DNA of 44,313 nucleotides from Gemmatimonadota bacterium (GTDB lineage: Bacteria > Gemmatimonadota > Gemmatimonadetes > Longimicrobiales > Gaopeijiaceae). Where the stretch lies: NCBI GenBank assembly GCA_007126575.1, contig SLBA01000022.1, positions 1-44,313 on the forward strand, read 5' to 3'. A program made the position numbers and the translations under genes. The notes under the pieces were generated by a model. The model saw nothing but the letters and a program-made list of their open reading frames with translations, did not search any database and was not told the origin of the DNA. The stretch's first letter is position 1; every line of letters begins with the position of its first letter. This document shows, piece after piece, positions 12,274 through 14,599 of this stretch.

Positions 12274-12303
12274 TTGACTCCCCCCGGCCGGTTCGGCTAG
12301 GGT
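12274..12303 (+). promoter_or_regulatory. Promoter of the leader peptide-ligase-monooxygenase operon
   Basis: TTGACT (12274-12279), an 18-bp spacer and TAGGGT (12298-12303). The predicted transcription start, about 7 nt past the -10 box, coincides with the ATG at 12309, so the first reading frame would be leaderless. Confidence 0.6.
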
Positions 12304-12308
12304 CAGAT

Positions 12309-12452
12309 ATGATCCCGTCAGCCCACCTCACCCACGCACCCGCCACCCCCGGCGACCGCATCCAGGCCTGCGCCTGCATGTGCATGTGCATGTGTGCCTG
12401 TCTCCCCCGGGAGAGCGGGTTGGTGGCCCCTGTGCTGCGAGTGGAATCATGA
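12309..12452 (+). CDS. Cys/Met-rich leader peptide (attenuator peptide)
   Basis: A 47-residue frame. Codons 21-31 read CACMCMCMCAC: six Cys and three Met in eleven codons, in a proteome where Cys is rare. It begins at the predicted transcription start, so it appears leaderless and needs no Shine-Dalgarno. It ends with TGA, with TAA two bases further on. A strong intrinsic terminator lies 33 nt beyond, followed at once by the ATP-grasp gene. The layout is that of a leader peptide sensing charged Cys- and Met-tRNA. Leaderless polycysteine small ORFs are known as cysteine-responsive attenuators in mycobacteria. A metal-binding microprotein is the alternative. The frame is too short for routine annotation. 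Confidence 0.7.
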   Translation: MIPSAHLTHAPATPGDRIQACACMCMCMCACLPRESGLVAPVLRVES

Positions 12453-12497
12453 TGTAACCCTCGACAAATCAGCAGGTGAAGCCGACGGCCCCCTCTC
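12401..12497 (+). promoter_or_regulatory. Protector and antiterminator pairings of the attenuator
   Basis: Segment 2, GAGAGCGGGTTG (12411-12422), can pair with segment 3, CGGCCCCCTCTC (12486-12497): twelve positions with one C-C mismatch and two G-U pairs. This would sequester the 5' arm of the terminator. Upstream, TCTCCC (12401-12406) pairs with GGGAGA (12409-12414), forming a protector hairpin that occupies part of segment 2. The Cys/Met codons (12369-12401) lie just before. A ribosome stalled there would block the protector arm and leave segment 2 free, favouring the antiterminator. Confidence 0.55.
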
Positions 12498-12521
12498 ATT
12501 CGGGAGGGGGCCGTTTTTTTT
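12485..12521 (+). terminator. Intrinsic terminator (attenuator)
   Basis: ACGGCCCCCTC (12485-12495) pairs perfectly with GAGGGGGCCGT (12504-12514), an 11-bp stem with an 8-nt loop followed by eight T residues. It is the best intrinsic terminator in the window. It stands only 24 nt before the start codon of the downstream gene and within its own transcription unit, which indicates attenuation rather than the end of an upstream gene. Confidence 0.88.
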
Positions 12522-12545
12522 ATCCCCCGTTCAGAGAGCTCGACC

Positions 12546-13538
12546 ATGCCATCACCCCACCCTCCATTCGCCTCGGGCGCCCCGCTGGGCATCCTGTACG
12601 AGCATCCCGACTGGTTCCGGCCCCTCTTCGCGGAGCTCGATCGGCGCGGCGTGCCCCATGAGCGCATACGAGCGGACCGTCACTGGTTCGATCCCTCGGA
12701 AGCCACCGCGGATCACGCCATCATCCTCAACCGGATGAGCCCGTCTGCCTGGCTCCGGGGGGAGGCCGATGCGGTCTTCCATACCACCCAGTACCTGGCG
12801 CACCTGAAGCGCCTGAACGTTCGCGTGATCAACGGCCTCGCGGCCTGGCGCACCGAGATCTCGAAGGCCTCGCAGCTGACCCTCCTGCAGGGGCTTGGTC
12901 TCCCCTACCCCGGCGCCCGGGTCATTCACCGGCCCGAACAGGCGGCAGAAGCCGCTCGAGGCCTCCGCTTCCCCGTCGTCTCCAAGCCCAATGTGGGTGG
13001 AAGTGGCGCGGGCATCGTCCGCTTCGACACCCCCGAGGCGCTGGAGCGCGGTGCTCGCGCCGGCGAGCTGGACTTCGGTCTGGACGGCACGGCCCTCATC
13101 CAGGAGTTCATTCCCGCCCGCGATGGTCGCATCGTGCGGGTCGAGGTCCTGGACGGAGCGTACCTGTATGCGATTCGAGTCTACGCCCCCGGAGACCAGT
13201 TCAATCTCTGCCCGGCCGACGTCTGCCAGAGCGTGGACGGCGCCCGGCTGGAGCGTGCCGCCTGCGCTGCCGACGCCCCAACGAACGAGATGCGGGTGGA
13301 AGGATACGACCCGCCGGACGAGATCAAGCGTGCCGTGGAGCGGATCACTGCCGCAGCCGGCATCGAGATCGGGGGGGTGGAATACCTGATCGACGACCGC
13401 GACGGCCAGCTCTACTACTACGACGTGAACGCCCTCTCCAACTTCGTGGCCGACGCGCCCCGCATCATTGGTTTCGACCCCTTCGCTCGCCTGGTGGACT
13501 GGCTGGAAGCAGAGATCGGCGCGGGGGTGGCGCCATGA
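12546..13538 (+). CDS. ATP-grasp ligase, RimK-like
   Basis: A 330-residue cytoplasmic enzyme. An N-terminal pre-ATP-grasp domain (1-105) is followed by the ATP-grasp fold: FPVVSKPNVGGSGAGIVRF (Lys147 and the Gly-rich loop), IQEFIPARDG (adenine-hinge region) and GVEYLIDDRDGQLYYYDVN (metal-binding Glu279, Asp293, Asn295). Such enzymes join a carboxylate to an amine or thiol through an acyl phosphate. The substrate cannot be read from sequence. AGAGAG precedes the ATG. Its stop overlaps the next start (ATGA), so it is translationally coupled to the monooxygenase. Expression should depend on readthrough of the terminator 24 nt upstream. Confidence 0.85.
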   Translation: MPSPHPPFASGAPLGILYEHPDWFRPLFAELDRRGVPHERIRADRHWFDPSEATADHAIILNRMSPSAWLRGEADAVFHTTQYLAHLKRLNVRVINGLAAWRTEISKASQLTLLQGLGLPYPGARVIHRPEQAAEAARGLRFPVVSKPNVGGSGAGIVRFDTPEALERGARAGELDFGLDGTALIQEFIPARDGRIVRVEVLDGAYLYAIRVYAPGDQFNLCPADVCQSVDGARLERAACAADAPTNEMRVEGYDPPDEIKRAVERITAAAGIEIGGVEYLIDDRDGQLYYYDVNALSNFVADAPRIIGFDPFARLVDWLEAEIGAGVAP

Positions 13539-14599
13539 GATTCGGATACTGGCTTCCCATGTTCGGTGGCTGGCTCCGCAACGTCGACGACGAGGGGATG
13601 GAGGCCTCCTGGGAGTATGTGAGCCGACTGGCTCGGCGCAGCGAGGAGATCGGGTTCGACCTCACCCTGCTCGCGGAGCTGAACCTGAACGACATCAAGG
13701 GGATGGACGCGCCATCACTCGACGCCTGGAGCACCGCCGCCGCCCTCGCCGCAGTGACCCGGCGGCTGGAGCTCATGGTGGCGGTTCGGCCCACCTTCCA
13801 CGAACCCGCCCTCCTGGCGAAGCAGGCGGCCAACATCGACCGGATCAGCCAGGGGCGCCTGTCGCTCAACGTGGTCTCCTCCTGGTGGGCCACCGAGGCG
13901 CGCAAGTACGGGATCCGCTTCGATGATCACGACGAGCGATACGCCCGCACCGCCGAGTGGCTCCAGGTGGTCAACGGCATGTGGAGCGAGGAGGAGTTCT
14001 CCTTTTCGGGACGGTACTACGAGGTCGAGGATGCCATCCTGGAGCCCAAACCCCTGCAGAGCCCCCGGCCGACCCTCTATGCCGGGGGTGAGTCCCCCGC
14101 CGGAAAGGCTCTCATCTCGAGCCGGTGCGACGCCTGGCTCACCCACGGCGATCCACCCGAGGTCATCGGGAAGAAGGTGGCGGAGATGACCGCCCGCAGG
14201 GAAGCGCTCGAGCTACCCCCCATGAGCTACGGCGCGGCCGGGTACGCCGTGGTCCGCCCCACCGAGGCGGAAGCACAGCGGGAGTTGGAGCGGATCACCA
14301 ACGTGCGACAAAGCGCGCGGGGATTCGCCAACTACCAGGACTGGGTCCGGAACACGAAGCTCGAGCGGAAGGTGAGCCTGAAGGACTACTCGGTCTCCAA
14401 CCGGGGGCTGCGAAGCGGGCTCGTGGGCACGCCCGAACAGGTGGCCGAGCAGATCCTCGAGTTCGAGAAGGCGGGGCTCGACCTTCTCCTGCTCCAGTTC
14501 AGTCCCCAGCACGAGGAAATGGAGCGTTTCGCGGAAGAGGTGATCCCGCTGGTCAGGCAAGGCTCGGCGCGGGCCCTGGAGGTGGGGGGACTGGCATGA
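13535..14599 (+). CDS. LLM-class flavin-dependent monooxygenase, SsuD/SfnG-like
   Basis: A 354-residue TIM-barrel oxygenase of the bacterial luciferase superfamily. Diagnostic stretches are AKQAANIDRISQGRLSLNVV then SSWW (residues 95-118), HDERYARTAEWL (132-143), FSFSGRYYEVEDA and EPKPLQSPRPTLYAGG. They match the alkanesulfonate (SsuD) and dimethylsulfone (SfnG) monooxygenase branch, which uses FMNH2 and O2 to release sulfite or methanesulfinate during sulfur starvation. Its start overlaps the ATP-grasp stop by 4 nt. No flavin reductase or sulfonate transporter is in the window, so the exact substrate is open. The Cys/Met-rich leader upstream fits a role in sulfur supply. Confidence 0.85.
   Translation: MRFGYWLPMFGGWLRNVDDEGMEASWEYVSRLARRSEEIGFDLTLLAELNLNDIKGMDAPSLDAWSTAAALAAVTRRLELMVAVRPTFHEPALLAKQAANIDRISQGRLSLNVVSSWWATEARKYGIRFDDHDERYARTAEWLQVVNGMWSEEEFSFSGRYYEVEDAILEPKPLQSPRPTLYAGGESPAGKALISSRCDAWLTHGDPPEVIGKKVAEMTARREALELPPMSYGAAGYAVVRPTEAEAQRELERITNVRQSARGFANYQDWVRNTKLERKVSLKDYSVSNRGLRSGLVGTPEQVAEQILEFEKAGLDLLLLQFSPQHEEMERFAEEVIPLVRQGSARALEVGGLA

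Follow-up and report, generated by a model that had tools for sequence, protein, structure and literature searches.

Features of the locus

The window is a stretch of 44,313 nucleotides (contig SLBA01000022.1) from a Gemmatimonadota bacterium of the order Longimicrobiales. A two-gene operon on its forward strand is preceded by a short open reading frame (ORF) rich in cysteine and methionine codons and by several RNA stems, the last of which is an intrinsic terminator. The features are:

12274-12303, + strand: probable promoter, TTGACT (12274-12279), 18-nt spacer and TAGGGT (12298-12303); supported by sequence and recurrence in relatives
12309-12452, + strand: leader-peptide ORF (47 codons), with probable translation of a leaderless mRNA; sister species preserve the frame
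12369-12401, + strand: regulatory codon run CACMCMCMCAC, codons 21-31, with 6 Cys and 3 Met; supported by conservation and by Met and TGT enrichment
12396-12420, + strand: protector hairpin A:B, 12396-12405 with 12410-12420; supported by folding and by covariation in 16 relatives
12411-12422, + strand: antiterminator arm B, which pairs with C; supported by folding, exchange test and stall model
12484-12521, + strand: intrinsic terminator C:D, 14-bp stem, loop ATTC and eight T; supported by folding and covariation
12486-12497, + strand: arm C, common to the antiterminator B:C and the terminator C:D; supported by folding and exchange test
12546-13538, + strand: RimK-like ATP-grasp ligase gene, 330 aa, the first structural gene
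13535-14599, + strand: luciferase-like (SfnG/SsuD-like) flavin monooxygenase gene, 354 aa, with a 4-nt overlap with the ATP-grasp gene

The leader ORF encodes the peptide MIPSAHLTHAPATPGDRIQACACMCMCMCACLPRESGLVAPVLRVES, and the Cys/Met run ends 16 codons ahead of its stop codon, which ends at 12452. The sequence CAGAT is placed between TAGGGT and the leader ATG. Leaderless initiation is plausible, since the ATG at 12309 is the sixth base past the -10 box. The strict consensus promoter scan gives no score for this promoter, the -10 box being too weak, and its support rests instead on comparison. A TANNNT box is found again 5-9 nt ahead of the leader ATG in most relatives; in the upstream regions it precedes 23 of 245 ATGs at this distance, nearly all of them leader starts, versus none of 37 gene starts. 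The promoter is considered likely and the transcription start is inferred.

The terminator stem spans 12484-12515 and is followed by the T run at 12514-12521, 24 nt upstream of the ATG at 12546 (fold z -5.8). The protector A:B lies directly 3' of the Cys run, and its 3' arm can alternatively base-pair with the terminator's 5' arm, forming the antiterminator B:C (about 12411-12422 with 12486-12497), with a folding energy of -36.8 kcal/mol and z -3.3. The original prediction, made from the sequence alone, had proposed a TTGACT/TAGGGT promoter starting on the ATG and a 47-codon frame with CACMCMCMCAC at codons 21-31; the promoter held by sequence and the frame held. The antiterminator that it proposed at the same positions held in folding. 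Two stems held in part: the protector, placed at 12401-12414, folds longer, and the terminator, described as 11 bp with eight T, has 14 pairs, the T run and the 24-nt distance being right.

The ATP-grasp and SfnG-like monooxygenase genes predicted downstream are also present. The predicted fold of the ATP-grasp protein (mean pLDDT 83) is nearest to LysX/ArgX, RimK and PsnB, and the structures nearest to the monooxygenase are 3rao, 8vw6 (an 'alkanesulfonate monooxygenase') and an SfnG structure. SfnG (TIGR04021) is still the best-scoring family of the monooxygenase, at 253.5 bits and below the equivalog cut-off of 382.95; because of this, the 'sulfur scavenging' assigned to the operon is only an inference. 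A role of the pair in organosulfur use is plausible by inference but not shown, and the literature searched yielded no paper on these two enzymes together. The PAPS reductase family (PF01507) has no match in the genome of the window (G000) or in two congeners (G079, G080). A link to sulfate reduction was rejected, as PF01507 occurs in 17 of 35 operon-bearing and 67 of 119 other genomes of the order, which is no association. A PADLOC search gave no match.

Distribution of the operon and codon evolution of the leader

Of 154 genomes of the order, 35 have an ortholog of the ATP-grasp gene (54-96% identity). In a set of 395 genomes taken from the phylum, 119 have a relative at E<=1e-60. A collection scan with named records places these relatives in Gemmatimonadota, Acidobacteriota, Bacteroidota, sphingomonads and a few others. 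The monooxygenase gene comes next in most loci (61-97% identity). Both genes (58% and 69% identity) also occur on a Thermoplasmata contig (L066) together with a piece of archaeal 16S rRNA, which suggests a possible transfer of the operon to an archaeon.

Within the order, 34 orthologous operons have upstream sequence that can be read, and about 30 of them show a short Cys-rich ORF there. Across three of its families, nearly all orthologous operons have both the leader and a terminator. The runs include MCCCMC, CMCMCCCMC, MRMCCCPC and CACTCACAC. One ortholog (L011) has no recognisable leader upstream and, in L015, a small gene is inserted between the terminator and the ATP-grasp gene. Many Gemmatimonadota of other families keep the Cys leader (for example MMMCCCCMC and CMCCCSCMCCLMC), while in family f4 it is mostly absent. 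Four Acidobacteriota loci also keep it, with the run MAMCMCMCCC. In Bacteroidota the run is FCCCCCCC-stop and a clear terminator was not found after the ORF. The relatives keep the Cys codons, usually with Met, plus the terminator; the Cys spacing varies freely among leaders (CCCCCCC-stop, MCMCCC, CTCSCSC).

The presence of a Cys-dense leader upstream of the operon is beyond chance. At least four Cys within eight codons occur in some upstream frame of 29 of 59 related-operon loci; by comparison, 44 of 3540 shuffles reach this density, as do 2 of 59 antisense regions. Exact polyCys motifs do arise by chance within coding genes, but of the 58 motif places examined in the 395 genomes, the only ones within a short leaderless ORF that a strong terminator follows are the 7 ahead of this operon. 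A wider regulon of such leaders was also sought and rejected: the pattern scans of the own genome and of the 395 genomes gave no further leaderless Cys leader with a terminator.

A 31%-identical paralog of the ATP-grasp gene, without the monooxygenase (L038-L048), has a Cys leader of its own with CTCSCSCPC, for example MIHATDIRSARARGATCTCSCSCPCSAWIRVC. This leader was encountered only via protein search and not by the pattern scans, and the C-terminal motif AWIRVC recurs in the paralog leaders of several species.

The leader frame is kept between sister species, where the changes in Cys/Met codons are almost only synonymous. The Cys codons show 6 synonymous and 1 nonsynonymous changes and none of 21 Met codons changed, versus 7 synonymous and 37 nonsynonymous changes in the other leader codons (p=0.0006). 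The ATP-grasp gene has the bias opposite to that of these other codons. The p-value is approximate because the sister-species pairs are few and partly overlapping. Selection acts on the Cys and Met codons only, a pattern characteristic of regulatory codons within a peptide that has no other function; the translation of the leader itself is inferred. The rare Cys codon TGT accounts for 48% of the leader Cys codons versus 11% in the operon genes (p 6e-12).

The proposal that Cys and Met form a joint run held in part. Cys is the constant element, whereas Met is lineage-specific though significantly enriched: among non-Cys residues it accounts for 52 of 145 inside the Cys zone versus 23 of 595 elsewhere in the leaders and is therefore not random. 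Met is scarce in the paralog leaders (1 of 25) and in the leaders placed behind a SAM riboswitch (1 of 9).

Alternative RNA stems and associated SAM riboswitches

A strong terminator lies between leader and gene in nearly all leader-bearing loci of the order, of other-family Gemmatimonadota and of Acidobacteriota, with energies of about -17 to -39 kcal/mol in most leader-bearing loci. In the 16 relatives the compensatory changes in A:B and C:D exceed all 500 shuffles and all slid controls. On the other hand, B:C is mostly invariant in this conserved 16-sequence alignment and its covariation is weak. The computed support for B:C comes instead from the exchange test and from divergent clades: in 45 divergent loci the own B:C pairing beats exchanged partners (p=0.0004; p=0.0015 after removal of near-duplicates), with the reservation that relatedness is not fully removed by the permutation. 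Compared with dinucleotide shuffles, the per-sequence B:C energy is mildly better than chance (mean z -1.15).

In the stall model, a ribosome was set at each codon and the RNA 3' of it was folded in 33 loci. A ribosome positioned on the Cys run permits about 10 B:C pairs in most loci, versus about 0 for one on B, 15 nt beyond the run, or at the stop. Even with no ribosome, B:C partly forms in some species; in the window it has 6.4 pairs. The model leaves out kinetics and the coupling between ribosome and RNA polymerase. By computation only, the locus meets the criterion of an antiterminator that excludes the terminator and is governed by the position of the ribosome.

In six Bacteroidota loci (L060, L062, L069, L070, L071, L073) from Pontibacter, Nafulsella, Salegentibacter, Salinimicrobium and Sabulibacter, Rfam searches place a SAM-I riboswitch directly ahead of the polyCys leader, some 350-490 nt before the ATP-grasp gene. 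The ORF that follows has 3-7 consecutive Cys codons and mostly ends in Cys-stop. SAM-II (SAM_alpha) precedes the Cys leader in two Gemmatimonadota loci (L009:1088-1159 and L010:2690-2765, minus strand). The same searches found no SAM riboswitch in the other loci tested. The window has no Rfam match, hence no SAM riboswitch match, and neither SAM-I (RF00162) nor SAM-II (RF00521) was found in its genome, the SAM-II genome search being without a positive control. Since SAM-I or SAM-II stands ahead of the same operon in eight loci, the operon is tied to sulfur amino acids.

Met is present in the Cys run of 32 of 40 loci without a riboswitch versus 1 of 8 with one (p=0.0006). This exclusion is merely suggestive because the riboswitch loci belong to two clades only. 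A bolder reading is a two-input sensor in which the alternating Cys and Met codons would read both tRNA pools, and Met-codon sensing and a SAM riboswitch would substitute for one another beside a Cys sensor that stays constant. We regard this reading with some reserve, the balance being slightly against it.

Proposed attenuation, rival explanations and known systems

The locus meets two further criteria of such an attenuator, namely a short Cys/Met-rich ORF and an intrinsic terminator before the structural gene, with the translation of the leader being inferred. Its anatomy, its conservation, the selection confined to the Cys/Met codons and a computed thermodynamic switch are shown; the transcription start, the stalling, the readthrough and a function of the enzymes in sulfur metabolism are inferred. 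The most likely interpretation, in the absence of expression data, is a classical ribosome-mediated transcription attenuator that senses Cys, possibly with Met. A leaderless mRNA would begin at or beside the ATG at 12309, and a ribosome would translate the leader behind the RNA polymerase. When charged tRNA-Cys (and tRNA-Met) is ample, the ribosome would clear the run and reach the stop at 12452; A:B would then sequester arm B, C would pair with D and transcription would stop at about 12521. When Cys, and possibly also Met, is scarce, a stall within 12369-12401 would mask arm A; B:C would subsequently pair, the terminator would be blocked and the ATP-grasp/monooxygenase operon would be transcribed. 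The genes are thus likely to be on only under shortage of sulfur amino acids. The attenuator interpretation of the original prediction is supported by the comparative tests, and the response of the operon to Cys or Met supply remains inferred because there are no expression data.

Three other explanations were considered, and each is judged very unlikely. The Cys-rich ORF could encode a RiPP precursor, graspetide-like or other, modified by the ATP-grasp ligase and the flavin monooxygenase. The ATP-grasp model does resemble enzymes that ligate peptides or carrier proteins (LysX/ArgX, RimK and PsnB, the last of them a graspetide ligase), and a short ORF rich in Cys beside such a ligase is a typical RiPP layout. 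However, the non-Cys/Met residues evolve without amino-acid constraint (the 37 nonsynonymous versus 7 synonymous changes), a recognition sequence is not conserved across genera, Cys spacing is free to vary, and a switchable RNA structure with a terminator lies between the ORF and the genes. The precursor reading is rejected on codon evolution.

The nascent or free peptide could instead sense a metal (Cu, Zn) or the redox state through its Cys/Met ligands and so set the stalling in place of codon decoding. Cys/Met-rich runs can bind Cu(I), and a copper-responsive uORF is known (PMC9426467). Against this, Cys spacing is not conserved, the Cys stretch before the stop is homopolymeric in Bacteroidota, and the TGT enrichment and the tandem SAM riboswitches indicate amino-acid supply. 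Finally, the leader could work mainly on translation or via Rho, the hairpin being a passive terminator, as proposed for the mycobacterial leaders. This finds support in the actinobacterial Cys leaders, which have no terminators (PMC1262725) and which the literature describes as attenuating translation (PMC13236596), and in the Bacteroidota leaders, which have no obvious terminator; it is opposed by the strong terminator and the specific antiterminator kept in Gemmatimonadota and Acidobacteriota. Transcription attenuation remains the preferred reading.

If the inferred response is correct, leader control by cysteine, known from Actinobacteria, also operates in Gemmatimonadota, Acidobacteriota and Bacteroidota. 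This would also connect a widespread, uncharacterised two-gene operon to the supply of sulfur amino acids. The apparent swap of Met codons and SAM riboswitches around a constant Cys run is a natural experiment in the regulatory evolution of one operon. The original prediction knew of no description outside actinobacteria; likewise, no paper on Cys leaders in Gemmatimonadota, Acidobacteriota or Bacteroidota was found in the literature searched, subscription papers being outside its scope.

The trp, his and leu attenuators of Proteobacteria likewise combine a regulatory codon run with the exclusive stems 1:2, 2:3 and 3:4. The present locus differs from them in the amino acids that it is proposed to sense (Cys/Met), in its inferred leaderless start and in the phyla involved. 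SAM-I and SAM-II riboswitches likewise regulate sulfur genes, and they stand ahead of the Cys leader itself in Bacteroidota and in two Gemmatimonadota loci. In Streptomyces lividans, the metL leader MSTTSDRTPATEATTTPGARCMCRRMCAF upstream of metNIQ contains CMCRRMC, has no clear terminator and is read as Met-dependent (PMC8079986). It resembles the present leader in being leaderless, as is inferred for the present one, and in its mixed Cys/Met codons within an otherwise unremarkable peptide (at its end in metL), but it is actinobacterial, lacks a typical terminator, precedes a Met importer and is read as responding to Met.

Within the literature searched, the nearest known relatives are the actinobacterial Cys leaders. 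Those predicted in Mycobacterium, P. acnes and B. longum have no terminators (Seliverstov et al. 2005, PMC1262725); the mycobacterial ones are reported to respond to cysteine (Canestrari et al. 2020, as cited in PMC9031893), and PMC13236596, which also cites that study, describes them as attenuating translation. The mycobacterial precedent invoked by the original prediction therefore failed as the same device, these leaders being without a terminator and acting, as described, on translation. The likeness consists of a short ORF with a Cys run and, as inferred or proposed here, its leaderless start, the sulfur-related operon downstream and a cysteine signal. The actinobacterial leaders have the run near the stop, no conserved terminator and cys/cbs genes downstream (PMC1262725), a pattern that the window fails, with its run 16 codons before the stop, its terminator and its other operon. 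In the present leader Cys and Met alternate, the downstream genes are an ATP-grasp/monooxygenase pair, and protector, antiterminator and terminator form the full attenuator stem set that the actinobacterial examples are without.
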